A DNA stretch of 26,877 nucleotides from a virus. The stretch spans positions 1 through 26,877 of the IMG/VR virus record IMGVR_UViG_3300031787_000700. The stretch is one strand, 5' to 3'. Positions 3,708 to 25,337 of the stretch are shown piece by piece (the first letter of the stretch is position 1; each line of letters opens with the position of its first letter). Both the position numbers and the translations under genes were made by a program. The notes beneath the pieces are model-generated. The model made no database searches and was not told where the DNA came from. It saw only the letters and a program-made list of their open reading frames with translations.

Positions 3708-4757
3708 ATGACTACACAAGAGTTACATATAAATATAGATTTACTTTTACAAAAAGTTTCTAGTAATTGGAATAGTAATTTTTTGCCACAAGAAAAAGAT
3801 ATATTTATAAATAAAGAAATATTAAAATTTGTTAAACAACGTATTAATCCTTTAAGTAATATTAAATTAGAAGGAAGTTATGATACAATTAAAAGAACTC
3901 AAGATATTAATAGTTTAACAAAAACTGTACCTCTAAATGTAATTGATTTAAATCAAAAGGAAGCTATTGTACAGCTTCCTTTTGATTTTTTATATTATGT
4001 TAGTGGTAGTTTAGATGTGTGTTGTAATTGTAATAATATTAATATTTCTACTTTTACTAAATATATTGCTACATTTTCCCCCATAGATGATAGTGTTGAG
4101 GATTTAAGTAGTGAAATATTAAGTCAATTAGACACTCTAATAGAAGGAGAAGATATTATAGATTTAGTTAATACTGTTAATTTACCTGAAAATTATTTTC
4201 CTAGTGATAATTTACCTAATTATCGTAAATATTTTATTTATAATAATTTAATATTTAATAGTATTAAACGAAATCTTCCTATTGGTTATGAAATTAAATA
4301 TGATAAATTTAATAATAAATTTATTATTAGTTCTAATACTCCATTCGAAATAACTTTTTCTATGGGGGAAATAGATTTTGACATAACATATACTCAAGAA
4401 ATTAATAATACTTATAATTTAACTAATTCATTAGAATCTGAATTACGTATTATAGATGAAGAATTTAAAACTCATGTTAAAAAATCTTATTTATCAGGTA
4501 ATAAAGATGAAAGTAGAATAGGTTATTTAAGAAATAATAGTATTATTTTACCAAAGTCACCTAATGTTATACTAGATACCTTAAATTTAACATATCGTTG
4601 TTATCCTAGTAAAGTAGATGTATTTTTACAATATAATTCAGAACTTACTGATGAAGCACTTGATGAAGTAATTAATAATGTTGCTCAAAATTTAAAAGGT
4701 GTTATTTCTGATGATGGTTATGAAAAATTTATTAGAGAAAATTTATTAATTGAATAA
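3708..4757 (+). CDS. Putative crAss-like structural (neck/head) protein
   Basis: This 349-residue protein begins with a helical segment (LLLQKVSSNWNSNFLPQEKD, then INKEILKFVKQRINP) of a type I associate with conserved structural proteins of Bacteroidota phages that follow the capsid gene. A Cys cluster (C105, C106, C108) sits after a beta-type segment; the remainder is Asn/Ile-rich and beta-like. No enzyme motif or membrane segment is seen. A head-tail connector or ring role is an inference from position and weak resemblance. Two DNA features lie within it: a perfect terminator-like hairpin at 3951-3991 that forces rare codons (AAG, CAG), and two copies of a C-run element in opposite orientation (near 4078 and 4369). 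Both suggest that the DNA or RNA here does more than encode protein. Confidence 0.72.
   Translation: MTTQELHINIDLLLQKVSSNWNSNFLPQEKDIFINKEILKFVKQRINPLSNIKLEGSYDTIKRTQDINSLTKTVPLNVIDLNQKEAIVQLPFDFLYYVSGSLDVCCNCNNINISTFTKYIATFSPIDDSVEDLSSEILSQLDTLIEGEDIIDLVNTVNLPENYFPSDNLPNYRKYFIYNNLIFNSIKRNLPIGYEIKYDKFNNKFIISSNTPFEITFSMGEIDFDITYTQEINNTYNLTNSLESELRIIDEEFKTHVKKSYLSGNKDESRIGYLRNNSIILPKSPNVILDTLNLTYRCYPSKVDVFLQYNSELTDEALDEVINNVAQNLKGVISDDGYEKFIRENLLIE
3951..3991 (+). terminator. Terminator-like hairpin inside a structural gene
   Basis: A perfect 15-bp stem (AATCAAAAGGAAGCT at 3951-3965; partner at 3973-3987) with a 7-base loop is followed by four to five T. It lies about 245 bases into the coding region beginning at 3708. 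The stem uses AAG and CAG where this genome normally uses AAA and CAA, which suggests selection for the structure. Confidence 0.75.
4074..4094 (+). repeat. C-run element, copy 1 (+)
   Basis: Sequence TTTTCCCCCATAGATGATAG, followed by TGTTG. It belongs to a family of five dispersed copies sharing CCCCATAG (see also 4355, 13570, 19352, 20781). It lies inside the gene at 3708 and encodes Ser-Pro-Ile-Asp-Asp with the otherwise rare CCC codon. Function unknown. Confidence 0.7.
4355..4374 (-). repeat. C-run element, copy 2 (-)
   Basis: Read on the minus strand this is CTATTTCCCCCATAGAAAAA, the core of the element without the TGATA extension. With copy 1 it forms a 13-bp inverted repeat about 280 bases apart within the same gene. 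Confidence 0.6.
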
Positions 4758-4770
4758 TTAAATTTAACTT

Positions 4771-5694
4771 ATGGAAAATGTTTTTATTGTTAATGCTATC
4801 GGAACTAAAGAATCTTCAACTACTGCTAGTATTGAAGGTTTAGCCGCTAGAGAAGTTCTTGTAATAGGAACTAATAATGTTGTACTTGCTACTCCTGCTG
4901 ATTGTGTAGGTGTAGATGGTTTTTATTTTGTAACTAAATTAACTAGTGGTAAATTTAGAACTAGTGCTGTTATTAAAAGACGTAATGTTACTTCTATTAA
5001 AAAGAAAGACTATGTTGCTTTTACTTTGCCTCAATGGCGACTTGCATCAGGAAGTAATGGACTTAATGTAGAAACTACAGGAGAAGCACAAATTGGTATT
5101 ACTAATAAATCTTATAATAGAACTATTAATTACCAAAGAGTAAATGTAAATGTAGTTAAATTAGCAGGAGAAAGTACTGCTACTTATTTAGCTAAAGTAG
5201 TTGCAGCTTTAAATGCTGAAAATAGTAAATTATCTCAAACTTTATTTACAGCTACATTAGGTAATACCAGTTCTAATTATTTTATAACTATAGCTTCTAC
5301 TAATAGAAATGCAGATATTTCTATTACAATGGATGGTATGTTTGCCGGTACTGAAATTACTAATACTGTTGTTGCTGTAACAGGTAATGGTTTTGGTGCT
5401 GATATTGTAGCTCTTGAAAAAGACCATTCTAAAAATTTAGGTAATCAAGGTTATGAAAGATTAACAGAAGCTTGGTATAATGCTCCTACTGAATCTTTAG
5501 CTACTGAAAATTATGATATTCTTAATTTAGCTTGGAAAGGTGAATCACCTACTGCAAGTTCTAGTATGACTGTAGCTAGTAATACTATTACTTTAGGATT
5601 TCCTACAGGAGGTACTGTAATTGATAATGTAGAAACTTTACTTAGATATTTATCAGGAGATACTTATATTGATGAAACTCCTATTGAACCATAA
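4771..5694 (+). CDS. Putative abundant virion protein (beta-rich)
   Basis: A 307-residue protein with many short Val/Ile/Thr beta-type stretches, Gly and Ala turns and few charges; the middle holds two related-looking strands around YRTINYQ-type and YFITIAS-type segments. There is no signal peptide, membrane segment or Cys. It uses relatively more non-A/T-ended codons (CGT, GCC, TTG) than most genes here, as the capsid gene does, and is followed by the second strong terminator in the window; both fit high late expression. In crAss-like phages an auxiliary capsid or connector protein is expected near here, so an auxiliary head or ring protein is my best guess. I recognise no named domain, so the function is inferred from position, composition and codon use only. 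Confidence 0.72.
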   Translation: MENVFIVNAIGTKESSTTASIEGLAAREVLVIGTNNVVLATPADCVGVDGFYFVTKLTSGKFRTSAVIKRRNVTSIKKKDYVAFTLPQWRLASGSNGLNVETTGEAQIGITNKSYNRTINYQRVNVNVVKLAGESTATYLAKVVAALNAENSKLSQTLFTATLGNTSSNYFITIASTNRNADISITMDGMFAGTEITNTVVAVTGNGFGADIVALEKDHSKNLGNQGYERLTEAWYNAPTESLATENYDILNLAWKGESPTASSSMTVASNTITLGFPTGGTVIDNVETLLRYLSGDTYIDETPIEP

Positions 5695-5720
5695 TATTTT
5701 ATTTATTTGTTGTTAATCCT

Positions 5721-5760
5721 AAAACTACTGATACTGATTATCTTTATCAGTAGTTTTTTT
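5721..5760 (+). terminator. Intrinsic terminator before the adhesin gene
   Basis: A perfect 13-bp stem (AAAACTACTGATA at 5721-5733; partner at 5745-5757) with an 11-base loop and a run of seven T. It lies between the stop at 5694 and the start at 5774, splitting head genes from fibre and lysis genes. Confidence 0.9.
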
Positions 5761-5773
5761 AATTTAAACTAAT

Positions 5774-8035
5774 ATGAACACAATAATAAATAATATTCAT
5801 TATACTTTAAAAAAAATAACTAATAATTATATTATTACTAAAAATACTAATAATTTAGTAGTATTATCTTATAAATTTAGTATTTATAATTGTAATACTA
5901 ATTTATTTGAAATTACTAATGAAGGTATTTTAGAAGATTTTAATGAAGTTGCAGAAATTACATTAATTAAAGATGGTAAATATAAATTAGAATTTAATAT
6001 TGAATCTGATGTAATAGGAGATTCTAGTATTGCTAATACTTTTATAGGTTTTTATCATTTCAATAATTTAAAAACTCAATTAGTTAAAGAATTAAAAGCA
6101 TTTTTATGTGATGATTGTAATTGTAAGTGTAAAGATAATTCTGATTGTACTTCTAAAGAAGCTAAATTTTGTTTAAAACATAAAAAATTATTTAGTAAAT
6201 TAGAAACTTATAGATATAATTTATCTGGATTTTTAATTAATTCTTATGTTATAGATAATATTAAATTATTTAGATTTATACAAACAGTTATTTCTAATAA
6301 TAGTTGTTTATTAACAAAAGAATTATGTAAAGAATTATTAGAAATTAGTTTAGGTAAACCTTATACTAATGAAAAAACTTATAAATTTTATATAGCTTTA
6401 TATTATTTAGGTATTTATTTTACAGAAAAATATATTGATACTGAATTATCAGAAGCAGATAATTTAATAAGATTAAACTATTTAAATACTAGTTATAATT
6501 ATAATGAAATTATAAATTGTATTTGTGGATTAGGTTTAGATATTAATACATTAGAACAATTATATAATAATATTTCTGGTGTTATTAATGATAATATTAA
6601 TATTAATTTACCTCCTATTCAAGCTAGTTTAATTACTATTTTTCCTTTAATAAATGAAAGTGAAACTCAAACTTTTATTTTAACTGCTGATAATTTTTTA
6701 GATAATTATTCTGACCCTGAAGATAATGCACCTTTTTATATAAGAATTAGTAATTTTACTTTACCTAATACTATTAGATTATTATTAAATAATAATCAAG
6801 TAGAACCTAATAGTATAATTAATTTTGCAGATATTTATAATGGATTATTATCTATTGAAGTAGATGAAATTACTAATCCAATTGTATATAATATTCCTTA
6901 TAATATTGCAGATGAAGGAAGTAATCAATTAGGAGCAGGTAATGTAATAAATATATTAGTATCTTCAGAAGATACCTATGAAAATTTACCTCCTATATCT
7001 ATAGGAGATATTAATGTATTAGTTGAAACTAATGATGATTATTTTTTAACTATACCATTTCAACAAGCATTAGATAATTATATTGACCCTGAAAATGATG
7101 AAATAGAAAATATTATTTTTACTCAAAATTATCCTAGTAATATTAATATTTTAAATATTATAAGTGAATTAGGTATTCCTTCTCAAACAGATATTCCTTA
7201 TAATATTATAACTCAAGGACAATTAGGATTATTTGTTAGTTCTACTAAACCAGAAGGAGAATATATATTACCTTTTAAAGTATCTGATATAGGTTCTAGT
7301 ACTTACGGTGCTACTGGTAATATTAATATTACTGTTAAAAGACCTGCTACATATGATGTAGTTATTAATTCTGTAAATGGTATAAATGTAATAGATAATA
7401 TTATAACTTTACCTAATAATATAACATTAGCTAATATTATTGCTACTGAAACTTCTAACATTAATACAACTAGTATAAATTGGACTTTAATATCTACACA
7501 TAATCATGTAATTACTATAAATAATAATACTACTTTATTTCCTACGGTTGTAGGATTACAACAAGGTAATACTTATACACTTAGATTAACAGTAATTAAT
7601 GATGGTAATACTTATATAAAAGAGATTAAAATAATTGTTACAGCAATTATAACTACTCCTTTTCAAAAAAGTACTGGCATAAATTTACAATTACAATCTG
7701 AAGGTAGTAATAGAGTTGGAATTACTGAAAATTTAATGAATACTTTACTTAATAATTATTTTCATCCTAATGGATTATTACCTACAAATATTATTATTGT
7801 AACTACACCAGGTATTGGATTTTTAGAAATAGATGGTGGTTTATCTCCTATTAATGCAAATAATACTATTATATTAGATTATAATCCTGGACAAACTAAT
7901 GATAGATTTCAATATGTTTTTGATTATCCTATTGCTGTTTCTGTTCCTTTAAATACTAATTTTTATTTTTATTTTACTGATATTAATGGAAATATTAGTA
8001 ATATTGCTTTATGTCAAATTAATTTACTTACTTAA
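5774..8035 (+). CDS. Multi-domain Ig-like/cadherin-like adhesin or fibre protein
   Basis: A 753-residue protein. Residues 1-270 form an N-terminal region with a Cys cluster (C112, C115, C117, C119, C125, C133), possibly metal-binding, followed by helices. Two tandem repeats follow at about 279-403 and 405-535; each opens with a Pro-Pro pair and contains a D-N-Y-x-D-P-E motif (Asp-Pro at 314 and 438), resembling cadherin-like or Ig-like repeats. An Ig/PKD-type domain follows (about 535-625), and the C-terminal domain (630-753) carries a related N-N-Y-x-x-P motif near 664. Such strings of beta domains on phage particles usually bind surface glycans or decorate the head or fibres. Location between the head and receptor-binding genes agrees. 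The exact place on the particle cannot be told. The gene is strongly A/T-biased. Confidence 0.78.
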   Translation: MNTIINNIHYTLKKITNNYIITKNTNNLVVLSYKFSIYNCNTNLFEITNEGILEDFNEVAEITLIKDGKYKLEFNIESDVIGDSSIANTFIGFYHFNNLKTQLVKELKAFLCDDCNCKCKDNSDCTSKEAKFCLKHKKLFSKLETYRYNLSGFLINSYVIDNIKLFRFIQTVISNNSCLLTKELCKELLEISLGKPYTNEKTYKFYIALYYLGIYFTEKYIDTELSEADNLIRLNYLNTSYNYNEIINCICGLGLDINTLEQLYNNISGVINDNININLPPIQASLITIFPLINESETQTFILTADNFLDNYSDPEDNAPFYIRISNFTLPNTIRLLLNNNQVEPNSIINFADIYNGLLSIEVDEITNPIVYNIPYNIADEGSNQLGAGNVINILVSSEDTYENLPPISIGDINVLVETNDDYFLTIPFQQALDNYIDPENDEIENIIFTQNYPSNINILNIISELGIPSQTDIPYNIITQGQLGLFVSSTKPEGEYILPFKVSDIGSSTYGATGNINITVKRPATYDVVINSVNGINVIDNIITLPNNITLANIIATETSNINTTSINWTLISTHNHVITINNNTTLFPTVVGLQQGNTYTLRLTVINDGNTYIKEIKIIVTAIITTPFQKSTGINLQLQSEGSNRVGITENLMNTLLNNYFHPNGLLPTNIIIVTTPGIGFLEIDGGLSPINANNTIILDYNPGQTNDRFQYVFDYPIAVSVPLNTNFYFYFTDINGNISNIALCQINLLT

Positions 8036-8037
8036 TT

Positions 8038-8514
8038 ATGAAATTAAATATTAATAATAGAATTTTTGATATATTTAGATTACCACTTAAATTATTAAAA
8101 ATTCCTTTAGCAGATGATAATGAAGATAATAAAATATTAGTAGTTAATCCTAAAGGAGAAGTTAGATATACTAATAATTTACCTTCTAATTCTAATACTG
8201 AAACATTTACTAAATTAGTTTATTATGTAAATAGCCAAGATGCAACAGGTTTACTTAATATAAGTAAAGTAACATCTAATGTTGATATTGATTTTTCTTT
8301 TCCAAGACAAGAAGTTGGTATTTTTAGTTTAAATTTTGATTTTCCTGGAGATTTTTATATAGATTTTAAAGGAGCAGTTCAAGGCAGAAATGATTGTATT
8401 GAATATAATAAAGAAGAAAATAATTTTAAAACTTATGATAATTTAGGAAATTTAAGTGATTTTTATGCTTTTGAATTTGGAGGTTGGATTATTATACATT
8501 TATTAAATAATTAA
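8038..8514 (+). CDS. Small fibre-like virion protein, unknown
   Basis: A 158-residue protein starting two bases after the preceding stop. The N-terminal part, with PLKLLKIPLADDN then NKILVVNPKGEVRYT, has a short Leu/Pro strand, an acidic stretch, and a strand ending in a Lys-Gly-Glu turn; this layout resembles the N-terminus of the fibre at 9722 and N-terminal anchors of Bacteroidota phage fibres. The C-terminal half (about 75-158) is beta-rich and aromatic, with no repeats, and resembles a compact jelly-roll-like tip, though I cannot name it. A minor fibre, fibre tip or cap protein is inferred from context. No signal peptide or membrane segment is present. Confidence 0.65.
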   Translation: MKLNINNRIFDIFRLPLKLLKIPLADDNEDNKILVVNPKGEVRYTNNLPSNSNTETFTKLVYYVNSQDATGLLNISKVTSNVDIDFSFPRQEVGIFSLNFDFPGDFYIDFKGAVQGRNDCIEYNKEENNFKTYDNLGNLSDFYAFEFGGWIIIHLLNN

Positions 8515-8534
8515 TTAATTTAAAATATTATTAT

Positions 8535-8870
8535 ATGGAAGGAATTTTTGTAAAATTATCATTAAGTATTTTAAGTATATTATTATATACTTTATTAAAA
8601 GCTTTACCTTATATTCAAAATAATAGTTTTGATATTAAATATTTTTTAAATCATAATTATAAAAAATGGATATGGTCTTTAATTACTATTATTATAGTAG
8701 TTATTATTATTAGTTTAGAACCTGCTACAGGAGAATTAATAAAAGTATTTTTAGGATTAGATATATTAGATACTCCTGCTTCTTTTTTTACTTTAGGTTT
8801 AGGTATATCTAATCTCGTTCAAGATGTAAGTAAAAGTAATAAAAAACAATTAGAAAAACATGATGGATAA
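8535..8870 (+). CDS. Holin-like small membrane protein
   Basis: A 111-residue protein with hydrophobic segments at about 5-24 and 45-61 and a weaker one near 82-94, ending in a charged tail (KSNKKQLEKHDG). It lies two genes before the amidase and overlaps the next small membrane protein, the arrangement of a phage lysis cassette. Holins permeabilise the inner membrane so that the endolysin reaches the peptidoglycan. No family signature is recognised, so the holin call depends on size, membrane segments and position. It or its neighbour at 8863 could equally be an antiholin. The stop codon overlaps the next start, suggesting translational coupling. Confidence 0.66.
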   Translation: MEGIFVKLSLSILSILLYTLLKALPYIQNNSFDIKYFLNHNYKKWIWSLITIIIVVIIISLEPATGELIKVFLGLDILDTPASFFTLGLGISNLVQDVSKSNKKQLEKHDG

Positions 8871-9715: not shown

Positions 9716-9721
9716 TTAATT

Positions 9722-11041: not shown

Positions 11042-11068
11042 TGAAATTATAATTAAATTATAATGAAA
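11033..11068 (+). repeat. 14-base direct repeat spanning the fibre stop and next start
   Basis: AAATTATAATGAAA occurs at 11033-11046 and again at 11055-11068, 22 bases apart. The second copy supplies the ATG of the gene at 11063; the first creates a three-codon ATG-AAA-TTA-TAA at 11041. It looks like a small local duplication. Confidence 0.6.
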
Positions 11069-11494: not shown

Positions 11495-11498
11495 GATT

Positions 11499-11924
11499 AT
11501 GAAATATATAAATAAAATTATTGAATTTTTTAAATATGTAACACAAACTTCTAATTGGTTATTACATATTATATTAGGTATAGGTATTGGTAATATGTTA
11601 CTTTGTTATGTTAGAAATACTTTTCTACAATTAATAATTGCTGTTTTATTTACTACTGTTATTGCAGGACTATTAGAAAAAGGACAAAGTATAGTACTAA
11701 AAGTAAAACCTGATATTAGAGATGTTATTGCTACTGGTATATTAGGAGGTTTTATTAGTTTTTTAATTAATATTACTTTTTATGGTATTCATTTTGATAC
11801 TGCTAAAATTGAAAATAAAGAATTTCTTTCTATAATATTTTATAGTGGAGTTATTTTAGTTATTTATTCTATTATACATTGGACTATTATTCAATTTATT
11901 AAATTAAAAAAAGAAAATAAATGA
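11499..11924 (+). CDS. Four-helix membrane protein, unknown
   Basis: I place the start at ATG 11499, five bases after the previous stop, instead of a TTG at 11469 that would overlap it. The 141-residue protein has membrane segments at about 20-38, 42-59, 75-96 and 109-134 and a Lys-rich end. Between the second and third lies DIRDVIATGILGG, a motif I associate with small membrane proteins in Bacteroidota phages, often near lysis genes. It ends in TGA overlapping the next ATG, so the two genes are probably translationally coupled. It could be an additional holin, an antiholin or a superinfection-exclusion protein; the sequence alone does not decide. Confidence 0.72.
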   Translation: MKYINKIIEFFKYVTQTSNWLLHIILGIGIGNMLLCYVRNTFLQLIIAVLFTTVIAGLLEKGQSIVLKVKPDIRDVIATGILGGFISFLINITFYGIHFDTAKIENKEFLSIIFYSGVILVIYSIIHWTIIQFIKLKKENK

Positions 11925-12289
11925 TTTGGATATTATTAACTTTAATAGCTTATATACTATTTAATATTCTATTTATAGTTAATTTTTTTGCAGTAATTTA
12001 TAAATATGGTTTTAAATGTTCTGTAATTATTGGTTTTTTTAAACAAACAGCTATTGATTTAGATAGATATGGAAATCATAATTACAGAACTTTATTTAAT
12101 ATTGCATTAAAAAAAGAAAATGGTTATAAATTTGGTAATGTTAATGAAACTATAAGTAGTGTTTTAGGTAAAAATAAAAGAGATAGTACTTTATCTAAAA
12201 TAGGTATAATTGTTTGTACTATTTTAGATTTTTTAGATGAAAATCATTGTATAAAAAGTATTAATAATAATATATATAATTATGAATAA
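11921..12289 (+). CDS. Small phage membrane-anchored protein with ETISSVLGKN motif
   Basis: A 122-residue protein with one N-terminal membrane segment (about residues 2-28) and a soluble part with conserved-looking blocks: NYRTLFNIAL (54-63), FGNVNETISSVLGKN (71-85) and DENHCIKSI (106-114). I recognise this block order from small proteins of many phages, including phages of Bacteroidota, often placed near lysis or tail genes, but know no proven function. It overlaps both neighbours by a few bases and so is coupled to the membrane protein upstream and the spanin-like gene downstream. The His-Cys pair (109-110) and the invariant-looking Gly-Lys-Asn could be functional. A role at the membrane during lysis is an inference. 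Confidence 0.75.
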   Translation: MIWILLTLIAYILFNILFIVNFFAVIYKYGFKCSVIIGFFKQTAIDLDRYGNHNYRTLFNIALKKENGYKFGNVNETISSVLGKNKRDSTLSKIGIIVCTILDFLDENHCIKSINNNIYNYE

Positions 12290-12965
12290 AAATATTAAAA
12301 ATATAGCAAGAATTGTAATAATAATAATTTTATTATTATTTGTATTTCATTTAGCAAAAGATTGGTTAAGACCTAAAATTATTAAAACTTTAGGAGGTTA
12401 TACTGATAAAGAAGTATCTAGTAAAATTGATACTTTAGAAAGACGTTATGATACTTTATATTTTGATTATCAAAATATTATTAGTAATGCTAGTATTAGT
12501 AAAAGAGATACTCTAACTAATTATGTTATCAAATGGGAAACTAAATTTATAAATTCCGGTCAAATTTTTACTAAGGACACGATTACACGCATTTCGGAAG
12601 CGTATATTTCATTCAATACCATAGATGATACTTTAATATCAGGAAAGATAAAAACCGTTATAAACGCTTCAAATTGCGAAATTGTTGAACAAAATTTGGA
12701 TTATAAACCTAAATTCCCTACATTAGTAAAAGAATATATTACTGTTAAAGAAACTATTACTGAAACTTTAACTAATGAACCTAAAATTAAATTAGGTATT
12801 GGTGCAGATGCTACTTTTAATAGAGATTTTAGTTTATTTGGAGTATATCAAAGTAAAAATAATTGGCAAATTCAAGGTGGTTATCAATGGAATACTGAAA
12901 CATTTGATAGAAATAATATTAGAAATACTGGTGCTATAAAAGTAGGATTAGTTAAATTATTTTAA
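12282..12965 (+). CDS. Membrane-anchored periplasmic protein, spanin-like
   Basis: A 227-residue protein with an N-terminal membrane segment (about 9-25), a region with coiled-coil character (about 40-75), a middle part, and a beta-rich C-terminus (about 170-227) that alternates hydrophobic and polar residues and ends in Phe, like strands meant for the outer membrane. An inner-membrane anchor plus periplasmic stalk and outer-membrane-like end suggests a spanin that disrupts the outer membrane in lysis; the place after other membrane genes fits. No lipobox is seen, so a classical Rz1 partner is not evident. Residues about 91-146 are encoded by a patch (12553-12720) using ACG, CGC, TCG, GCG and ACC codons that are rare elsewhere, with an inverted repeat inside. 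The spanin role is inferred. Confidence 0.65.
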   Translation: MNKNIKNIARIVIIIILLLFVFHLAKDWLRPKIIKTLGGYTDKEVSSKIDTLERRYDTLYFDYQNIISNASISKRDTLTNYVIKWETKFINSGQIFTKDTITRISEAYISFNTIDDTLISGKIKTVINASNCEIVEQNLDYKPKFPTLVKEYITVKETITETLTNEPKIKLGIGADATFNRDFSLFGVYQSKNNWQIQGGYQWNTETFDRNNIRNTGAIKVGLVKLF

Positions 12966-13709
12966 ATGAAAACATTAAATCAAATAGCAGAAAATATTGC
13001 TTTTAAATTAGGAGATCAATTTAATCATACTTTACAAGAAAGTATAAAAGATACTCTAATAGATTGGAGAGCTAAATTTTTAAGAGATGATGCAGATAGA
13101 AATTTTATATCTGATATTCATTTTTCTCAAACTATTACTATACAATTTCAAAAAGTTAATTTATTAACTGAATTTAATGCTAATTTTGATTGTATTAATA
13201 GTATATGTAGTGGTATTCAAGAACAAGAAGAATATATGATTCTTAAAAGTACTAAAAAAATACCATTACCTATAAGAACTAAAATTAGTCATACAAATCC
13301 ATATAATTATATAGGAAGTATTGATGGTTTTAGAAGTTTTAAATATACTACTATTGATAAATTTCCTTATTTAAAACATTTAAAATATAATAGTAGAGTT
13401 ATTTATTATATTATTATAGATGGATATTTATATATAATAAATAATTTAGATTTGTGTGATATTAATAATACTTTAAATATTTGTAATGTTATGATTCGTG
13501 GAGTTTTTGAAAATCCTAGAGAAGTATTTAAAGTTTGTTCTGTTAATAATGGATTTGCAGATGATGCTATTTTCCCCATAGGTGTTGATATGTTGATGCA
13601 AATTAGTAATGGTATTGTAAGAGGTGAATATCCTCTTAAATCTAGTAAAGGTGAAGAAATAAATATTAAGAATAATGATAACAATCAAAACAATGTTCGA
13701 ACTTCATAA
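12966..13709 (+). CDS. Putative ring/tail adaptor protein A
   Basis: A 247-residue soluble protein starting right after the previous stop. It has a helical N-terminus (KDTLIDWRAKFLRDDADR, about 28-45) and a C-terminal motif DDAIFPIGVDMLMQI (199-213) that I associate with conserved neck or tail adaptor proteins of crAss-like phages, of the P22 gp4 type. Such proteins form rings between portal and tail. Its place before two further neck genes and the muzzle protein agrees. The C-terminus is Asn-rich and overlaps the next gene by up to 35 bases. The Pro-Ile of the motif is encoded within a copy of the C-run element at 13570. Confidence 0.75.
   Translation: MKTLNQIAENIAFKLGDQFNHTLQESIKDTLIDWRAKFLRDDADRNFISDIHFSQTITIQFQKVNLLTEFNANFDCINSICSGIQEQEEYMILKSTKKIPLPIRTKISHTNPYNYIGSIDGFRSFKYTTIDKFPYLKHLKYNSRVIYYIIIDGYLYIINNLDLCDINNTLNICNVMIRGVFENPREVFKVCSVNNGFADDAIFPIGVDMLMQISNGIVRGEYPLKSSKGEEINIKNNDNNQNNVRTS
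13570..13595 (+). repeat. C-run element, copy 3 (+)
   Basis: TTTTCCCCATAGGTG, followed by TTGATATGTTG, fits the family with a two-base insertion in the TGATA part. A weaker match (TTCCCCATTTAG on the minus strand) lies about 280 bases downstream near 13852, mirroring the spacing of copies 1 and 2. Confidence 0.6.
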
Positions 13710-14463
13710 TACATTAATTAATGTAGAACTTGAAGAATTAGATAAAGAAGTTAAAAAACTTAAAGTTACATTAAAAAGTATTAATGATTTTTTTGAAAAT
13801 AATAGAGATAAATTAGTAGGTTGTGTAGACTACAACCTTCTTCTAAATGGGGAACATCAATATATTAAAACTCCATTAAATGCAACAGAAGAATATGCTA
13901 ATATTAATTTAATAGCTTTAAGAGATACTACTAAATTAATTAATAATAAAGAAGCTAGACTTAAAGTTATTAAAGGTCAAAAATTACATATTAAAGTTTT
14001 CTTTTATATTATTAAAAGAATTAACGAATTAATAGTAGATGCATTAATATATAAAGGTTATCAATTAAGAGATGATTTTATAGGTACTATTAAAATTATT
14101 AATGCTAAAGATAAAAAGAAAAGACCTGATTGGAATAAAAGTCTTATTAATAAACAAAAATTAATAGAACAAGGTAAAATTCCTTATATGAAAGCTGATG
14201 CTGAAAAAGCATTAAAAGAAAATAAACCTTATAATGGAGTTCCTTGGCTTGTTTATCATAGTAGTGAAGATAGTCTTTGGTTTAATTGGAGTTATGGTTT
14301 AAGACCTGCTTTAATTTTACCTAATATTAGAAATTATGTTTTTGTTCCTTTAAGAGGTACTACAGGAGCTGTTGCTAAATTACAAGAATTTAGAAAAAGT
14401 TTAAATAAAGATGCATTTAATGAAAGATTTAATAATCCTAATAAATTTAAAATATGCACGTAA
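13675..14463 (+). CDS. Conserved neck/tail-module protein, unknown
   Basis: A 262-residue protein (or 256 from the second ATG at 13693). The N-terminus is a coiled coil (about 12-45), followed by a region with YIKTPLNATEEYANI, another helical stretch (around residues 85-130), and a C-terminal part with PDWNKSLINKQKLIEQGKIP, YNGVPWLVYH and WFNWSYGLRPALI. It is basic and soluble with no membrane segment. It lies between two ring-type genes and overlaps both, so it is probably co-translated with them and part of the same assembly. I do not recognise an enzyme. A hairpin (13819-13837) occurs in the early coding region and uses rare GAC, TAC and AAC codons. Its role is unknown. Confidence 0.7.
   Translation: MITIKTMFELHNTLINVELEELDKEVKKLKVTLKSINDFFENNRDKLVGCVDYNLLLNGEHQYIKTPLNATEEYANINLIALRDTTKLINNKEARLKVIKGQKLHIKVFFYIIKRINELIVDALIYKGYQLRDDFIGTIKIINAKDKKKRPDWNKSLINKQKLIEQGKIPYMKADAEKALKENKPYNGVPWLVYHSSEDSLWFNWSYGLRPALILPNIRNYVFVPLRGTTGAVAKLQEFRKSLNKDAFNERFNNPNKFKICT
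13819..13837 (+). other. Short hairpin in early coding region
   Basis: GGTTGT and ACAACC pair across a short loop that can itself pair in part. It is followed by TTCTTCT and not by a clean T run. Rare GAC, TAC and AAC codons are used here. Confidence 0.45.
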
Positions 14464-15128
14464 ATTATATAAGTACTAAACAATTAATTGGTAGAATTTT
14501 AAATGGTATTGGATTAGAATCTACTAATTTTGTTGATAGTTTTCCTCAATGGATTGAAGATGCTATTAGTATTATAGGTATTCCTAAATATTATATACAT
14601 AAACATTATGTTATAAATATTAATCAACATAAAGGAAGTTTACCTTGTGATGTTGAAAGTATACATAGTTTATGGGTTGATACTAATTTAAATTCTTTTT
14701 CTAAAAGAAGTTGTTTAAAACATTTAACTATTAGAAATAACCCTCTTATAGGACATGAAATTAAATTACCTCAACATGAAAGTGTTTATGGTAATATAAA
14801 TGGTAGATTTTTAGAAACATCATTTTATAACGGTAAGGTGTTATTAATATATAAAGGTATTCCATGTGATGATGAAGGATATCCTTTAGCTCCTAGTAAT
14901 GCTGATTTTATTCAAGCTTTTGAATATTATGTTATTATGAGATTAGCTTTAATAGGTTATAAACATCCTATATTAAATTATGAACAAGCATATCAATTAT
15001 GGGAAAAACATTATCCTAGAGCTGGAAATTCTATTAATTGGATGAGTTTACCTGAATATCAAGAATTTACTGAAATGTGGAATAATAGTATATTAGGAGA
15101 CTTACAAAGTCTTAATTATATACATTAA
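14454..15128 (+). CDS. Putative ring/tail adaptor protein B
   Basis: A 224-residue soluble protein overlapping the previous gene by 10 bases. The N-terminal half holds ISTKQLIGRILNGIG (6-20), SFPQWIEDAISIIGIPKYYI (29-48) and a beta pair ending in GSLPCDVESI (61-70). This layout (helix, Trp-containing helix, Leu-Pro loop) is one I associate with P22 gp4-like adaptor or collar proteins conserved in crAss-like phages. The C-terminal half has helical segments with PLAPSNADFIQAFEYYVI and ends with a Trp-rich part. It stands just before the muzzle gene, where crAss-like phages carry ring proteins. It is probably one of the rings joining portal to tail. The order of the rings cannot be read from sequence. 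Confidence 0.75.
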   Translation: MHVNYISTKQLIGRILNGIGLESTNFVDSFPQWIEDAISIIGIPKYYIHKHYVININQHKGSLPCDVESIHSLWVDTNLNSFSKRSCLKHLTIRNNPLIGHEIKLPQHESVYGNINGRFLETSFYNGKVLLIYKGIPCDDEGYPLAPSNADFIQAFEYYVIMRLALIGYKHPILNYEQAYQLWEKHYPRAGNSINWMSLPEYQEFTEMWNNSILGDLQSLNYIH

Positions 15129-15140
15129 CATAATAATAAT

Positions 15141-18100
15141 ATGGAACAATTTAAAGGTTTAAGTAGAGATACTACTAGAAGTAAAACTCCTGCAGGAATG
15201 TGGGAGTTTGCTCGTAATATATTATTAACAAAAGGATTTACTTCTGTATCTAATGAATATGGATTTATAGAACAAGTTGATATTCCTGGAGAAGTTATTG
15301 GAGTTATAAGTACAAATGAAGAAACTGTTATATTAAGTATAGATGGTGATTTTTCTTGTATTGGGTACTTTAATAATGAAGAATTAATATATATTCCTGT
15401 AATAAGAAGTATTTATCTTGGTTTTAAAATTAATCATCCTATTGAAGGAGTATTTTTTTATAATTTTAAACAAGAATTAATAATAGCTTTTTGTGATGGT
15501 GTAGCATTAGATAGTAATACTCCTAAATTAATTAATCTTAATAATTTAGGTTTTGAAGTAGATGTTAATTATGAATTAGTTAATCCAGATGATATAAATT
15601 TATTAAATTTATTTATTAATACAATAGAAGGTAATATAAGAATATCATATGGTACAAATAGTACTATTCCTATAGATATAGTTTATATTACTTTTTGTTA
15701 TGTATTACCGGATAATATATCTACTACTCCTTATTATCCTGTTCATCATATAGCTTATCCTACTTTTCAATGGAATGAAAAAAATAGAAGACCTGTAATT
15801 ATTAATTTAACTGAATTAGATAATAAATATGATCAACTTAAAATTGGATTAATTATTAATACTGATAATGGTTTAGTAGGATATGAAAGTTTTCCTATTA
15901 ATTATAATAATAGTCAATTAAATTATACTATATCTTCTTTAACTGATTTTACTATTACAACTTTAGATAATTTAATAGTACCTACTATATTTTATAATAG
16001 AGTTAAAACTATGACTACTCAAAATAATCAATTAGTTATAGGTAATATAGCAATAGAAGAAGAAATAAAAATACAAAAATATGTAAATAGATTAGAACTT
16101 AAATTACAATATATAATTGATGAAGAAGAAAAATTTACTCATCCCACTCTTTGTCCTGATGAAGTTTATGCTATTTATATACAACCTCAATGGTTAACTG
16201 GTGAATTTGGTAAAGCTTATCCTCTTATTGGTCCTGAACCTAATAATAATACTGAAAGAAATATATTAACTCAAACAGATTTAAATAATTTAGGTTTAAA
16301 TGAATTAGATGCTAATGAATATAAAAAATTTCATATTATTAATTCAGGAGATTGGGTATTACCTCCACCTTTTATATCTAATGGAGATAGTTCTCAAGTA
16401 GCTCTTAAATGGGGTTTTTGGGAAAATGAAGAAGTTTATCCTAATATAGAAGATTTTAATAGTACAATTGATTATAATAATAATCCTTTAGGAGGAACAG
16501 ATTTAAGAAATACTCCTATTAAATATTTTAGAGTTCCCGGATTAGATAATATTATTAAAAAAATACCTTGTCCTTTAGGACATACTCATAAAAATGATTT
16601 AAATAATTCTGTAACTTTTCAAGGTTATATTCCTAAATTTGGTGTATATTTAAATAATTTTAATACTGTTTTTCCTGAAAAAGTTAGAGAAAAAATGCAA
16701 GGATATAGATTATTAATAGTTAAAAGAAAACAAGGAAATAGATTAGTAGAAGATATACCTTTTATACATCATGGAGAAACAAGAACTATGGATATAGATG
16801 GTACTAATCGTGAATTTATTCATGCTAATTATGATAATCCTCAAGCAGATGGAGGACAATCTTTAAGACATATTTATATTCAACATGGTTTTTCAAAATT
16901 ATGGAGTTCTACATTATCTTATTATAAAAATACAATATCTGCTAAAATTATTAAAGCTAATTATGGAATAACTCATACAAGAGTAAGGAGTGGAAATGAT
17001 ATAGAAATAGAATTAGATGATAAAGGTACTTTTGAAAGTGTAAATTCTATTTCTAATTTTACCGGTTATTGTAAAATAAAAGAAACACAAAAATATGGAA
17101 TTATTAAAGATTTAATTTATGTTCCTGGTAATAATATTGCTGCTAAAACTCAATTTCTTGAAGAAGGTATATTTTTAAAAGCTAAAAATTATCTACAAAC
17201 AGATGATGGGGGTTACACAGATTTACCTGATGAAAAATGGAATCCTTTATTAATTTATAGTCCTAATGGTCTTAGTTCAAGAATTGATAATATAGAATTA
17301 TATAATAGTACTACTAGATTATATGAAGATTTTGATATAACTGAATCAGATGGTTGTTATAAAAAAACATTATCTGTTACTTTATTAAATTTACAAAAAA
17401 ATTTGTATAGTGGATTTAATCCAAAAGAATTTATATCTTTAGGAAGAGTTAATATTAATGAATCTAATAAAATATTATCAGATAATGGAGATATTTTTAC
17501 TAATAATATTATTAGGGTTCCTACTGGTATACTTTTAGGTACTTCTATATTTGGAAGAATAATATATAATGATTTATATATAAAAGGTATTTGGAATATT
17601 AATAATAATTCTAGTGTTTTTATAGAAAAAGATAGACCTTATAATCGAATTTATGAATTAGATGGAGATGGTAGTGAAAGTGGTTTAGTTAATACATTTG
17701 AATTTAATTTAAGTTTTTTTAATGAAGATGTTTTTAGAAGTTTAAATGATTTAATTGTTGCAATAGCTAATAATAGTTTAAAACCTTTTATTAATTATTT
17801 TCCTTTTAGAGTAGCAAGAACTCCTAAAATTCCTAATGAAAATTTACAAACTAATGTATTAAGAACTTTTAGAGCTAATGATTATTATGAAATGCTTAAT
17901 GATAGAGGAGAAATTATAGCAATAAGAGGTACTAATAAACAATTATTTATTCAACAAAAATATAGTTTATTTGTAGCTACTCTAAAAGATAAACTTAATA
18001 CAGATGGTACTAGTACTTATTTAGGAGAAGGAGATATATTTGATAGAACACCTGATGAAATTAAATTTAATACTAATAAAGGTTATATAGGATGTACTAA

Positions 18101-19535
18101 TCAATTTGCTTGTATTATTTGTCCTAGTGGTTATGTAGTTGTAGATCAAATTAAAGGTAAAATATTTTTAATAGGTGATGAATATACTGAAATTAGTAAA
18201 GCTAATATGATTAATTGGTTTGAAGCTAATTGGGATACTAAATTTTATTATATTTTAGATAGATTTAGTAAAAAACAAAGAGTTGATAATCCTTTTAATA
18301 GTATTGGTCATTTAGTAGGTTATGATGAAGATAATAATAGATTATTATTTACTAAAAAATATTATGAATTTAAATTTCCTGAATTAGTAGAAAATGATGA
18401 AGAAGTAGGACCTTTTACTTATACATTTGATGGAGAGTTTTATTATAATAAAACAAGTTTAGTTAATGGTATTCAAGTAAATGTAAATAATCAACCTTCA
18501 AATGGTAATACTACTTCTTTAAATTATAGAGATATTAATAATGTTCAATTATTTAATGTATCTTGTATATTTGTAAATACTGTAACAGACCCTAATCATG
18601 TTTTAATAGGTATTAATCGTTTTGCTACATTTGTTAATTATATATCTTATATAAATTTAAAATTAAGTGAAGCTAATTTAATAGAAGGTAAAGATTATTA
18701 TTTAACTATTAGTAATAATGGAGTAGATACTCCTTATTTTATATTAACTATTTTTAATAACACTGTATTAGTTTCTAATGATAATAATGTTACTGGTTTT
18801 ACTTTTAATTATCCTGTTATTGAAATACCTTTTCCAAAAAGACTAATATATAATGATGAACGTTATTTTATTAATAAAAGTAAAACTTTATCTTTTCAAT
18901 TAGATGATAAAGTATGGGTATGTGAACATGATTATTATCCTAATGCTTATTATTTTAATCAATTAGGTTTATTTAGTATTTATAATAACCCTACTTTTGA
19001 ATTAGATGAAGAAGGAGCTGTAATTAATATTAATTTTAATTTTAGTAATTATATACATAATCAAAAATCTGTTAATAGAGGATTATTTTATAATAAAAAT
19101 TATCAATCTTATATTGATTTAATATTTAATGGAAGATTAGATTTAAGTAAATTATATCAAGCTGTAACTTGGGAAAGTGTTGTTTATACAATAGAACAAG
19201 CTAGATTATATAATAATACTATTGATGCTATAATGATTTATAGTGATTATCAATGTAGTGGAGTTATTAATTTAGAACAATTTGTAAATTGTAGAAATGT
19301 AGAAGGTGTTTGGAATTTTAATGAATTTAGAGATGTTGTAATTAATTCTAATTTCCCCATAGTTGATAGTGTTGGAGACTTAGTTGAAAATAATGTAAAT
19401 TTTAACAAAAGTTTTTTTGATAAGTCAAAATTTATTGGTACATTTGTAGTTATACGCCTAATTATGTTTAATAATAATACTAATGATGTATATATTAATC
19501 AAGTTAATGTAAAAAGTAGAATTTCTAAAAGATAA
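15141..19535 (+). CDS. Muzzle / tail stabilisation protein (crAss-like)
   Basis: A 1464-residue protein that should form the distal tail knob. The N-terminus (EQFKGLSRDTTRSKTPAGMW, then EFARNILLTKG) is the pattern I know from the very large stabilisation proteins of crAss-like phages, called muzzle in structural work. The sequence is beta-rich throughout with many Asn, Tyr and Gly-Asp turns, consistent with propeller and sandwich domains; no signal peptide or membrane segment is seen. It lies between ring proteins and internal cargo proteins, as expected. By analogy it closes the tail channel and binds other tail parts. The start is the first ATG after a 12-base gap. A 7-bp stem near its start (15184-15209) and a copy of the C-run element near its end (19352) lie within the gene. 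Confidence 0.85.
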   Translation: MEQFKGLSRDTTRSKTPAGMWEFARNILLTKGFTSVSNEYGFIEQVDIPGEVIGVISTNEETVILSIDGDFSCIGYFNNEELIYIPVIRSIYLGFKINHPIEGVFFYNFKQELIIAFCDGVALDSNTPKLINLNNLGFEVDVNYELVNPDDINLLNLFINTIEGNIRISYGTNSTIPIDIVYITFCYVLPDNISTTPYYPVHHIAYPTFQWNEKNRRPVIINLTELDNKYDQLKIGLIINTDNGLVGYESFPINYNNSQLNYTISSLTDFTITTLDNLIVPTIFYNRVKTMTTQNNQLVIGNIAIEEEIKIQKYVNRLELKLQYIIDEEEKFTHPTLCPDEVYAIYIQPQWLTGEFGKAYPLIGPEPNNNTERNILTQTDLNNLGLNELDANEYKKFHIINSGDWVLPPPFISNGDSSQVALKWGFWENEEVYPNIEDFNSTIDYNNNPLGGTDLRNTPIKYFRVPGLDNIIKKIPCPLGHTHKNDLNNSVTFQGYIPKFGVYLNNFNTVFPEKVREKMQGYRLLIVKRKQGNRLVEDIPFIHHGETRTMDIDGTNREFIHANYDNPQADGGQSLRHIYIQHGFSKLWSSTLSYYKNTISAKIIKANYGITHTRVRSGNDIEIELDDKGTFESVNSISNFTGYCKIKETQKYGIIKDLIYVPGNNIAAKTQFLEEGIFLKAKNYLQTDDGGYTDLPDEKWNPLLIYSPNGLSSRIDNIELYNSTTRLYEDFDITESDGCYKKTLSVTLLNLQKNLYSGFNPKEFISLGRVNINESNKILSDNGDIFTNNIIRVPTGILLGTSIFGRIIYNDLYIKGIWNINNNSSVFIEKDRPYNRIYELDGDGSESGLVNTFEFNLSFFNEDVFRSLNDLIVAIANNSLKPFINYFPFRVARTPKIPNENLQTNVLRTFRANDYYEMLNDRGEIIAIRGTNKQLFIQQKYSLFVATLKDKLNTDGTSTYLGEGDIFDRTPDEIKFNTNKGYIGCTNQFACIICPSGYVVVDQIKGKIFLIGDEYTEISKANMINWFEANWDTKFYYILDRFSKKQRVDNPFNSIGHLVGYDEDNNRLLFTKKYYEFKFPELVENDEEVGPFTYTFDGEFYYNKTSLVNGIQVNVNNQPSNGNTTSLNYRDINNVQLFNVSCIFVNTVTDPNHVLIGINRFATFVNYISYINLKLSEANLIEGKDYYLTISNNGVDTPYFILTIFNNTVLVSNDNNVTGFTFNYPVIEIPFPKRLIYNDERYFINKSKTLSFQLDDKVWVCEHDYYPNAYYFNQLGLFSIYNNPTFELDEEGAVININFNFSNYIHNQKSVNRGLFYNKNYQSYIDLIFNGRLDLSKLYQAVTWESVVYTIEQARLYNNTIDAIMIYSDYQCSGVINLEQFVNCRNVEGVWNFNEFRDVVINSNFPIVDSVGDLVENNVNFNKSFFDKSKFIGTFVVIRLIMFNNNTNDVYINQVNVKSRISKR
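15184..15209 (+). other. Hairpin near the start of the muzzle gene
   Basis: AAACTCC at 15184-15190 pairs with GGAGTTT at 15203-15209 around a 12-base loop holding the palindrome CCTGCAGG in part. GAG is used in place of the usual GAA. No T tract beyond three bases. Confidence 0.45.
19352..19382 (+). repeat. C-run element, copy 4 (+)
   Basis: TTTCCCCATAGTTGATAGTG, followed by TTGGAGACTTAG. It matches copy 5 over about 30 bases although copy 5 is on the other strand of a different gene. It encodes Phe-Pro-Ile-Val-Asp. Confidence 0.72.
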
Positions 19536-19538
19536 AAT

Positions 19539-21992
19539 ATGCAACAACCTGATAAAAATAAAAGTAAAATTAAACCAGTAACTAGAGGAGATAGTTTAGT
19601 TGTTTATAATAGTACAGTTAAATTTGAGAATAAACTTAAAGAATTAAAATATAAAAAAACTAGTTCTTTTAAATCAGATATTAATAATAATTCTCAATTA
19701 TATGGTAATATATATTCTTTTAATAATAATGATATTAAAATAAATCCTAATTATGTTGATTTAGAAGAATTAAAAAAAAATATATATAAAGATAGTAAAG
19801 GAGATATTTATTTAAAACCTACAGTACCTCGTAAAGGTACTACTAATTATGGTAATATTAATGTAAATAATAAACCTGTTTTAAAAAAAATAGATGATAA
19901 TCGATATTTAACTATTGAAGATTTAGCTTATATAGGTTATAATACTGATTTACCTAATATTATATTAGATAAAAGAATTAAGCCTCAAAAAATAGAAGGA
20001 TATGATTTAAATGATGGAAATAAAAGAGATGTTATAAGTTTTAGTAAATATGATAAACTAGCTGTTAAACCTTTTGATTTATTAACAGAAAAAGAAAAAG
20101 TTAAAAGAGTAGAAGAATATGGTACTGATGGAGTTCCTCAAAGTTATTTGAATAAAACTAAAAATAATACAAGTACAAATACAAATACTACTAATAAACC
20201 ATATACTAATAAACCAACTGCTACATATAGTACTAAACCAACTGCTACATATAGTAAACCTAGAGAAAAAGTTGAAGCTATTAAACCTTTACCTAGTGCA
20301 TCTATAAAGACTGGTAGTAATACTTTATATTCTGATGTTAAGGTTATTCGTAAAGCTAGAACCCCTAAAGCTTATAAAGTAGAAACTAGTGGAGGTAGTA
20401 AATCTAACAAATGGAGAACAACACAAACTGTTAGTACTCCTGATAATATAGGAGCTAATGATGGAGATACAAGAAAAATAGTTCCTCTTTTTGGTGATGG
20501 TGGTAAAATTAATACAATAAATGTTATGAGAAAACCAAGATTAAATAGTAGAAAAAGATATATTTCTCCTGCTGTAATTGGTGCAGGAGTTAATGTAGGA
20601 ATGGGATTAATTCAAGGAGCATTACAAAGAGGTGCTCCTATTAAAGCTAGAAGTAATGCTTTAAATCAAATGTGGAAAGAAAAATCTGTTAGTGATGCTC
20701 AAAGTTTTGATGATTATACTAAAAATATTGATGATGTTATTGATTATTATGCTGATGGTGGTAAACTTCCAACATTATCATCTATGGGGAAATATAACAC
20801 AACAGGAGGTAAATTAAAACCTATTGCTGATGGAGTTGTTGAAGTACAAGGTAATAAACATGGAGAAAAAACTATTGATAATTCTTATGGAGTTACTTTA
20901 CATAAAGGTAATCAACCAATTGCTGAAGTAGAAGATAAAGAAGTTATGGTAGAACAACCTGATGGTGATATGGTTTTTAGTGCAAGATTAAAAGATGAAA
21001 AAGGTGTATCATTTGCTAATAGAATGAAACAATTAGCTAAAAAACGTAATAAATTAGAAAAAGATTTAGATAAAAATTATGATACTAAATCTCGTAATAG
21101 TATTGAACGTAAATTAGCAGGTCTTAATATGGCTGAAGAAGTTCTTAAAATTAAACAAGAAGAAGTTAAATTTGAAGAAGGTCAAGCTGAATTAGATAAA
21201 CTAGCTAATGGTGGTAAAATTCCTAAATATGCTAATGGTACTATGAATTTAGGAGATACAGATAATTATTTATCTAAAAATAATAAACAAATGTGGAAAG
21301 ATATATTACCTACTTTAGCTGATAATGCAGGTAATATGTTATTAACTCTTAATACTCCTAAATTAGCTAAACCTATTAGAAAAAGTGCAGTTAATTTAAA
21401 TACTAACTATAATATTAATCCTCAATTATCAGAAGTTAAAAATGAAATAAATGCTATTACAGATAATATTTATAAAAATACATCTAATAGTAATATAGCA
21501 AGAGCTAATATATCTTCTGCTAGATTAAGAGGTTTACAACAGACTAATAATATATTAGGACAAAAAGAAAATATTGAAAATCAATTAAAGAATCAAAATA
21601 AATTAAATAAACAACAAGTAGAACATATTAATATTGATGCAGATAATAATAATAATATGTTAGAATTTACTAGAGCTAATGATATTCATAGTAGAATTTC
21701 TGCAAATTTAGCAGATATGAGTAGTGATTTTAAAGAAGGACAAACTAGAAGAGATTATAATGCATATTATGATGAATCTATGTTATTAGAATTACTTGAT
21801 GACCCTACTGGTGTTAAAGCTAGACATCTTATGAATAATCCTTATTTAAAAGCTAAATATGGTAAATATTTTACAAAACCTAGTAATACTGTTAATCCTA
21901 GACGTAAAAGAATAGATACTAATTTTAATAATAATAATACTGTTATTGGTACTACTTATTTACCTAGAAGAATTGATGCTAATTTTAATTAA
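19539..21992 (+). CDS. Internal virion (cargo-type) protein with GGK motifs
   Basis: An 817-residue protein starting three bases after the muzzle stop. The N-terminal third is basic and disordered, with a Thr/Asn/Pro linker holding a tandem repeat (KPTATYST, about 225-240). Three (D/N)GGK(I/L) motifs follow at 320, 406 and 557, plus a related TGGKL at 422. Residues about 429-484 form a small beta domain containing GNQPIAEVEDKEVMV and VFSARL, a pattern I know from large virion proteins of Bacteroidota phages where Gly-Gly motifs precede an acidic beta unit. A coiled coil (about 495-555) and a helical C-terminus follow. In crAss-like phages proteins at this place are packed inside the particle and probably ejected with the DNA. 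The cargo role is inferred from position and composition. No enzyme is recognised. Confidence 0.78.
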   Translation: MQQPDKNKSKIKPVTRGDSLVVYNSTVKFENKLKELKYKKTSSFKSDINNNSQLYGNIYSFNNNDIKINPNYVDLEELKKNIYKDSKGDIYLKPTVPRKGTTNYGNINVNNKPVLKKIDDNRYLTIEDLAYIGYNTDLPNIILDKRIKPQKIEGYDLNDGNKRDVISFSKYDKLAVKPFDLLTEKEKVKRVEEYGTDGVPQSYLNKTKNNTSTNTNTTNKPYTNKPTATYSTKPTATYSKPREKVEAIKPLPSASIKTGSNTLYSDVKVIRKARTPKAYKVETSGGSKSNKWRTTQTVSTPDNIGANDGDTRKIVPLFGDGGKINTINVMRKPRLNSRKRYISPAVIGAGVNVGMGLIQGALQRGAPIKARSNALNQMWKEKSVSDAQSFDDYTKNIDDVIDYYADGGKLPTLSSMGKYNTTGGKLKPIADGVVEVQGNKHGEKTIDNSYGVTLHKGNQPIAEVEDKEVMVEQPDGDMVFSARLKDEKGVSFANRMKQLAKKRNKLEKDLDKNYDTKSRNSIERKLAGLNMAEEVLKIKQEEVKFEEGQAELDKLANGGKIPKYANGTMNLGDTDNYLSKNNKQMWKDILPTLADNAGNMLLTLNTPKLAKPIRKSAVNLNTNYNINPQLSEVKNEINAITDNIYKNTSNSNIARANISSARLRGLQQTNNILGQKENIENQLKNQNKLNKQQVEHINIDADNNNNMLEFTRANDIHSRISANLADMSSDFKEGQTRRDYNAYYDESMLLELLDDPTGVKARHLMNNPYLKAKYGKYFTKPSNTVNPRRKRIDTNFNNNNTVIGTTYLPRRIDANFN
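19823..19841 (+). other. Short hairpin in the cargo-type gene
   Basis: AGTACCT at 19823-19829 pairs with AGGTACT at 19835-19841 across a 5-base loop. The stem is short and lacks a T tract, so it may be chance. Confidence 0.35.
20211..20256 (+). repeat. 24-base tandem repeat in linker
   Basis: AAACCAACTGCTACATATAG plus TACT, at 20211-20234, is repeated at 20235-20256 (last copy two bases short), giving Lys-Pro-Thr-Ala-Thr-Tyr-Ser-Thr twice in a low-complexity linker. Confidence 0.85.
20781..20796 (-). repeat. C-run element, copy 5 (-)
   Basis: On the minus strand this reads TATTTCCCCATAGATGATAA, with TGTTGG following (down to about 20765). The gene is on the plus strand, so here the element is antisense and encodes Ser-Ser-Met-Gly-Lys. 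Confidence 0.72.
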
Positions 21993-22001
21993 TATATAAT
22001 T

Positions 22002-25307: not shown

Positions 25308-25337
25308 ATTATATATAAATTTTATAAATAATAAATT

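Follow-up and report, generated by a model that had tools for sequence, protein, structure and literature searches.

What is the short word that recurs in both orientations among the late genes of a crAss-like phage, and what might it do there? The stretch in question, called the window below, is the whole of positions 1 to 26,877 of the IMG/VR virus record IMGVR_UViG_3300031787_000700, in which the original prediction had noticed repeated copies of the 8-mer CCCCATAG. We found that this word belongs to an asymmetric, phage-specific DNA element of ~25 bp, which recurs on each strand at intervals of about 5-8 kb throughout the genome, keeps its places between close relatives, and drifts in spelling in concert. 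The central claim of the prediction, a DNA-level element dispersed in both orientations and not accounted for by protein homology, is thus supported, and the checks proposed with it (a whole-genome scan, a search of relatives, and persistence despite protein change) were all favorable.

Copies of the element in the window and in the complete genome

The five copies of CCCCATAG claimed for the 26,877-nt window are all present, at 4079 (+), 4360 (-), 13574 (+), 19355 (+) and 20782 (-), the earlier coordinates being off by at most 10 bases. Dinucleotide shuffles gave an expectation of 0.23 copies, with none of 100 shuffles reaching five, and an order-2 Markov model gave 0.044 copies (P = 1.4e-9), or P of ~5e-5 once corrected, by our own arithmetic, for ~32,900 strand-merged 8-mers. 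In a ranking by over-representation of the window 8-mers with at least three G/C and at least three copies, this word stood first. The relaxed pattern TTTCCCCATAG with up to two mismatches was found 6 times against 6.6 expected, which is the chance level, so the signal is confined to exact or profile matches. As had been stated, CCC and GGG codons are rare (6 and 12 among the 8817 codons of the plus strand), Pro-Ile is encoded at the plus copies and Ser-Met-Gly at the minus ones, and the copies near 4079, 19355 and 20782 share a common tail.

The natural reading direction is that of the reverse complement, CTA-N-GGGG. Read on this strand, CCCCATAG becomes part of a ~25-bp asymmetric element of the form (pyrimidines)-CTA-N-GGGG-A, with the rough consensus CAACACT..C.TCTA.GGGG(G)AAA in the G-run orientation. 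With a profile that had been trained on the whole genome, a scan of the window at a threshold of 14.3 bits returned six copies, with G-run-strand coordinates 4082-/4364+, 13577-/13847+ and 19358-/20786+. The sixth copy, near 13847 and with the opposite orientation to the 13574 copy, scored 17.9 bits, a threshold of 14.3 being reached in none of 20 simulated windows; with this copy added, the window set consists of three opposite-strand pairs. The looser match proposed at 12619 exists as sequence, but it scored below 8 bits against the threshold of 14.3 and was dropped as an element copy. The six copies are as follows.

4074..4098, minus strand: element copy 1, CTATGGGGGAAAA; exact 8-mer, 42.2 bits; homologous place in G002 (G001 71453); pairs with copy 2.
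4348..4372, plus strand: element copy 2, CTATGGGGGAAA; exact 8-mer, 29.4 bits; homologous place in G002 (G001 71737); ~280 bp from copy 1.
13569..13593, minus strand: element copy 3, CTATGGGGAAAA; exact 8-mer, 26.9 bits; pairs with copy 4; under the cut-off of the set used for mapping to relatives.
13831..13855, plus strand: element copy 4, CTTCTTCTAAATGGGGAAC; profile match of 17.9 bits; same place in G001 (position 137); ~270 bp from copy 3.
19350..19374, minus strand: element copy 5, CAACTATGGGGAAA; exact 8-mer, 32.2 bits; homologous place in G002 (G001 5646); pairs with copy 6.
20770..20794, plus strand: element copy 6, CATCTATGGGGAAA; exact 8-mer, 30.7 bits; homologous place in G002, G009 and G011 (G001 7076); ~1.4 kb from copy 5.

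The same phage is represented by a full-length record, IMG/VR IMGVR_UViG_3300042691_032784 (G001; 81,152 bp), which carries the major capsid gene of the window at 100% identity and is identical to the window across 25,000 compared positions. It contains 10 copies of CCCCATAG, against 0.157 expected under an order-2 and 0.507 under an order-3 model, and its profile sites number 21-25 depending on the run. These sites run round the entire genome, and the idea of an element confined to late genes was therefore rejected. An exact long pattern searched over the viral collection matched only in the same phage, and a second such pattern matched 51 stretches. By coordinates, the two ends of the G001 record overlap across window positions 13712-13780 (~69 bases), which suggests a complete, circular genome of ~81.1 kb.

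Places and spellings in related phages

G001 and G002 are the two closest full genomes. When the G001 sites were carried over to G002 via homologous proteins, 16 of 21 could be mapped, and for 15 of these 16 a G002 site with matching orientation lies there, at a distance of no more than 1 bp in 14 cases and of 23 bp in the other; the proteins concerned are 50-76% identical. Likewise, 9 of 11 sites mapped from G011 to G008 fall at a homologous place. Few places are shared, within 60 bp, by farther pairs (2 of 15 for G001/G009, 2 of 16 for G001/G011, and 2 of 18 for G002/G009), which indicates that site places turn over with distance. Across 14 site pairs of G001 and G002, the 13-base core has an identity of 0.82 and the flanks one of 0.63, a difference that exceeds all 5000 resamplings; a core conserved above its flanks at fixed places means that selection acts on the DNA. 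The spelling itself differs between the two genomes at the base that precedes the G run and in much of the upstream part. A target that changes in step at all of its sites is a sign of a trans-acting, co-evolving reader, and we infer from these comparisons that the element is probably read by a co-evolving, phage-encoded protein whose action runs one way from each site.

Among the 11 further records of the first relatives set, several of which are short, CCCCATAG occurs only once in total. The relatives have spellings of their own, including TATTGGGG, TATAGGG and TACGGGC, and CTCYACGGGG in p-crAssphage. The top repeats are TCTATTGGGGA in G002, TTCTATAGGGAAA and TGTAGAGGGAA in G009, CTACGGGCAA in G011, CTCTTACGGG in G008, TCTAAAGGCAA in G003, and CTATGGGCAG in the fragment G007; the element was not seen in repeat scans of the 25-kb fragments G005 and G010. 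Among eight further environmental relatives, a clear element is present in six (G015, G017-G021); G013 has a weak one (TACCGGGA, 25 hits), and that of G014 is doubtful (10 weak hits of TTATAGGG).

The comparison set from GenBank consisted of eight Crassvirales genomes. The element lies on both strands in cr127_1 of the Crevaviridae (TGGCCACAAGGGCGAGAGG, 10 copies), cr271_1 (TTCTTCTACGGGGGAGC, 19 copies), 'Rudgehvirus jaberico' (TCCTYTACAGGGGA, 30 copies) and p-crAssphage BK010471 (CATCCTCYACGGGGRGTC, 32 copies), and all 10 copies in W01 share TGGCCACAAGGG. Only a weak repeat, TTACTTTGG, was seen in cr1_1. The same scans revealed no comparable element in phi14:2 (W05) or ProJPt-Bp1, and W05 and W06 gave no element hits. 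PhiCrAssBcn2 (W07, OQ221537) has a different repeat, ~50 copies of CTTCTGGAG on both strands with uneven spacing (coefficient of variation, CV, 0.69-0.79), possibly another dispersed signal.

Sites were called from our own profiles, with thresholds set via simulation or by hand, and since the genomes share kinship, counts across them are not independent. The information content of the element is ~19-31 bits in 13 of 14 profiled genomes. A strict profile run on G003 returned 34 hits, some of them surely false, with a smallest same-strand gap of 54. In a de novo seed scan, the commonest seed was unrelated or codon-periodic in G001, G002, G003, G008, G009, G011, G013, G014 and G017, and in G008 and G009 the element was outside the two seeds shown. 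By eye, the pyrimidine tract before TA is complementary to the purine tract after the G run in G009, G021, W03 and some W02 copies (CTTTC..GAAAG, CTTC..GAAG, CTCC..GGAG), which could form a small hairpin; this was not seen in G011, W01 or G013.

A single pattern, YTACRGGG, was fixed in advance and run on 15 genomes new to the element scans, a second p-crAssphage strain included, with the reversed pattern as the control. It was found in 11-37 copies in 12 of the 15 genomes, against 0-2 for the control. The positive genomes are all eight of the Intestiviridae (MK238400, MH552500, MT774386, MT774383, MT774384, MT774377, MT774381 and MN917146) and the records G016, G022, G023 and G024. The phage crAss001 (10 versus 9) and two Suoliviridae (3 versus 1 and 1 versus 1) were negative for this spelling, their own spellings not having been sought.

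Spacing, strand and gene orientation

The arrangement was assessed in nine genomes, for which the cut-offs of the G genomes were set by hand at 26 bits (19 bits for G009). Same-strand gaps have a CV of 0.22-0.80 and are more even than expected from uniform placing at P < 0.003 in eight of the nine, the exception being W01 (P = 0.058). Same-strand neighbors within 2 kb are absent from seven of the nine, and involve two sites each in G009 and W04. In looser sets of 14 genomes, five of them repeated, the minimum same-strand gap is 54-1909 in G003, G013, G014, G017, G018, G020, G021, W02 and W04. Even spacing is also significant in W12, G022, G016 and G024.

Both strands carry the element in all nine genomes (for example, +11/-10 in G001, +11/-12 in G002 and +12/-12 in G009), and successive sites tend to change strand: over 20 genomes we counted 320 changes versus 227.4 expected, a number reached in none of 5000 shuffles, with 11 of the 20 singly significant at 0.05. 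Mates on the opposite strand no farther than 600 bp away are commoner than under a rotation null (P < 0.05) in G001, G002, G009, G011, G008, W01, W03, G003, G018 and G022. The excess is found in the clade of the window, where 16 of the 21 G001 sites have such a mate against 3.2 under the null (P = 0.003). Close pairs occur in both orders, 16 facing and 32 facing away.

Genes were called by a simple longest-open reading frame (ORF) rule, and ORFs cover 91-95% of the genomes. The 333 sites from 15 genomes comprise 144 within an ORF in sense orientation, 102 within one in antisense orientation and 87 outside any ORF; in the gaps of tandem genes, 37 sites have the direction of the genes and 28 the opposite one. 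Site orientation is nearly neutral to gene direction.

Candidate functions and accompanying genes

The observations call for a process that is one-directional, has a limited reach of 5-8 kb, serves both strands, and ignores gene direction; the start of new DNA strands is the best fit to this. In the broadest terms, there is a fair, if less than even, chance that Intestiviridae, Crevaviridae and environmental relatives, p-crAssphage included, carry a hitherto undescribed array of oriented, strand-alternating sites at even intervals, which a co-evolving phage protein would read and which would set strand starts (or cutting, recombination or folding) every 5-8 kb per strand, a genome-wide metric signal for which no described phage counterpart was found. 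Less secure, and offered as a possibility that we favor provisionally, is the specific claim that the elements are distributed start points for DNA synthesis. On this view, synthesis of a new DNA strand would begin at each element, either from a short RNA that starts at the G run or from a nick at the CTA/GGG step, and the even, strand-alternating layout would provide for both strands as the genome is copied. A likeness of the core to the start region of T7-class promoters also counts in its favor. The arrangement is compatible, too, with a directional nuclease or recombination signal, or with a scaffold.

Several results weigh against start points of new strands. Evenness of spacing falls short of significance in W01, G013, G017, G018 and W11; the W11 sites were taken by the CTAC spelling alone (P = 0.50), and p-crAssphage also uses CCAC. 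Part of the strand alternation follows from even per-strand spacing, so the two are not wholly separate lines of evidence. The excess of opposite-strand mates does not reach significance in W02, W04, G013, G014, G015, G017, G019, G020, G021, W12, G016, G024 or W11. Sites outside ORFs make up 26% despite the high ORF cover, and the lean towards sense within ORFs (P = 0.009) is not needed for a pure replication signal. No step in GC or AT skew, of the kind that distributed origins might leave, was seen at the 333 sites over 1-3 kb (z of -1.0 to 1.4), a weak test whose outcome leans against such origins. A putative primase family, named by likeness and neighborhood, is present in 16 of 17 element-bearing genomes (the weak G003 and G013 included) and also in all five genomes that lack a clear element (G014, W05-W08), so that the presence of this primase does not explain the element. 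A T7-type polymerase (PF00940) was found in 0 of 10 crAss-like records, the window among them and several partial, and in 0 of 21 more, the latter search recovering the T7 control at E = 9.9e-110.

Foremost among the alternatives, if unlikely, are localized nick sites as in T5, phiKMV and tf, whereby a phage nickase would break a single strand of virion DNA at every element. Localized nicking is the closest described phenomenon. In the account of these phages (PMC3517423), tf has 14 nicks at TACT/RTGMC and phiKMV-like phages are nicked at CGACxxxxxCCTA/CTCCGG; the sites occupy similar places in relatives with an altered consensus, for which co-evolution of nickase and site was proposed. The crAss element shares with these short asymmetric, often intragenic sites their dispersal, their conserved places and their drifting spelling. 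The sites described there are, however, on one strand only and uneven in tf, where 11 of 14 annotated nicks fall in the left half, whereas the crAss element, known from sequence only, is on both strands, even and strand-alternating, and no nickase candidate was shown for it.

Next in probability, and likewise improbable, are sites for an architectural, packaging or partition protein that orders the genome at even intervals. Whole-genome even spacing and concerted drift would suit such sites, and two gene families track the element: DUF932/TIGR03299 (G001 28354-29379), found in 17 of 17 element-bearing genomes and none of the five others, and an unnamed family of ~215 residues (G001 41266-41913), found in 16 of 17, with the miss in the partial G008 and a hit at only E = 1e-4 in W01, and in none of the five others. 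This correlation amounts to about two evolutionary events, and to our knowledge neither family is known as DNA-binding; moreover, a scaffold needs neither strict asymmetry nor strand alternation.

Still less probable are signals like Chi, oriented sites that would switch a phage exonuclease or helicase to recombination or mark self DNA. The Chi sites of RecBCD and AddAB are oriented, present genome-wide on both strands, and follow their enzyme in spelling, and the orientations, even spacing and gene-direction neutrality of the crAss element agree with this. Proteins like RecT (16 of 17 element-bearing genomes, all but the partial G008) and like RecD and RecB (17 of 17) accompany the element and are all missing from W05-W08, the hits that name RecD, RecB and the Pfam RecT falling below curated cut-offs. 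Yet G014 encodes all three, and its element is weak at best. Chi sites described so far span 5-8 bases; the crAss element is longer and more informative, as its bit scores and the shared word in W01 demonstrate. All of these accompanying genes are leads only. The DUF932 gene itself carries an element site in G001, G002 and G011.

That the elements are mRNA promoters of a phage RNA polymerase is doubtful. We take the element core to resemble the start region of T7-class promoters, which are ~23 bp long with a TA-rich step before a G run, uniform within a genome and drifting between phages; in addition, sites are ~3- to 5-fold enriched outside ORFs, and within them the sense lean is in the direction expected. 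The crAss element differs from these promoters in lying on both strands, near-equally with and against genes, even in tandem-gene gaps, and with so near-neutral an orientation it does not behave as an mRNA promoter. The original suggestion of an ordinary regulatory site for the phage RNA polymerase did not hold on this account, and mRNA promoters were rejected as a candidate. Promoters of a T7-type polymerase were rejected because the cognate gene, found in T7, was not found in the 31 crAss-like records, some of them partial. The virion RNA polymerase of phi14:2 is known, and that phage showed no comparable element by the same scans. The stoperators of mycobacteriophage L5 are likewise many dispersed asymmetric copies of one site per genome; they follow the direction of transcription, whereas the crAss element does not.

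Chance, codon bias or protein homology can be dismissed: although CCCCATAG was chosen post hoc and its relaxed pattern alone is at chance, the pattern fixed beforehand already refutes this explanation, and the sense and antisense copies and the parallel change at homologous places speak against it too.

No published description of such an arrangement was found in the literature searched, which was covered in part, and the accessible portion of one article on crAss-like genomes (PMC7886860) contains no match for 'promoter', 'repeat' or 'origin of replication'. The crAss-like phages are among the commonest human-gut viruses, and little is known of their DNA replication and packaging. With 10-37 copies per genome and a species-specific spelling, the element offers a bait for its reader protein; the map of sites predicts the positions at which strand starts, breaks or bound protein would be seen, and spelling swaps between species provide a built-in test of specificity. 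The even per-strand spacing is itself unusual and constrains any mechanism.

The p-crAssphage spelling was also compared with 84,980 bacterial and archaeal genomes, which gave 42 stretches. Sixteen of them are in two assemblies, five in Chitinophaga silvisoli and 11 in one Clostridia metagenome-assembled genome (CANORX). One Chitinophaga contig that was read encodes a relative of the major capsid protein of the window (32% identity, E = 3e-75), and one Clostridia contig encodes relatives of two late proteins of the window (E = 1e-5 and 3e-11), so the 16 stretches were taken as crAssphage contigs. The remaining 26 are spread over 25 assemblies (two in one of them), close to the ~30 expected by chance by our own arithmetic for equal base frequencies. 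An element borne by host genomes was rejected on these grounds. The small p-crAssphage-like contigs with the gut spelling (loci L241, L248, L251, L262 and L267 of Chitinophaga silvisoli and 11 CANORX loci, for example L254) are likely due to contamination or binning error.

Two further observations were made in passing. Another G/C-rich word, GACCCTGA/TCAGGGTC, is over-represented in the window (4 copies versus 0.047 expected), and G011 has 7 copies of TAATGACCCT. In G001, positions 11627-26824 form a single ORF of 5065 residues, by its position one giant protein of the crAss-like transcription block.

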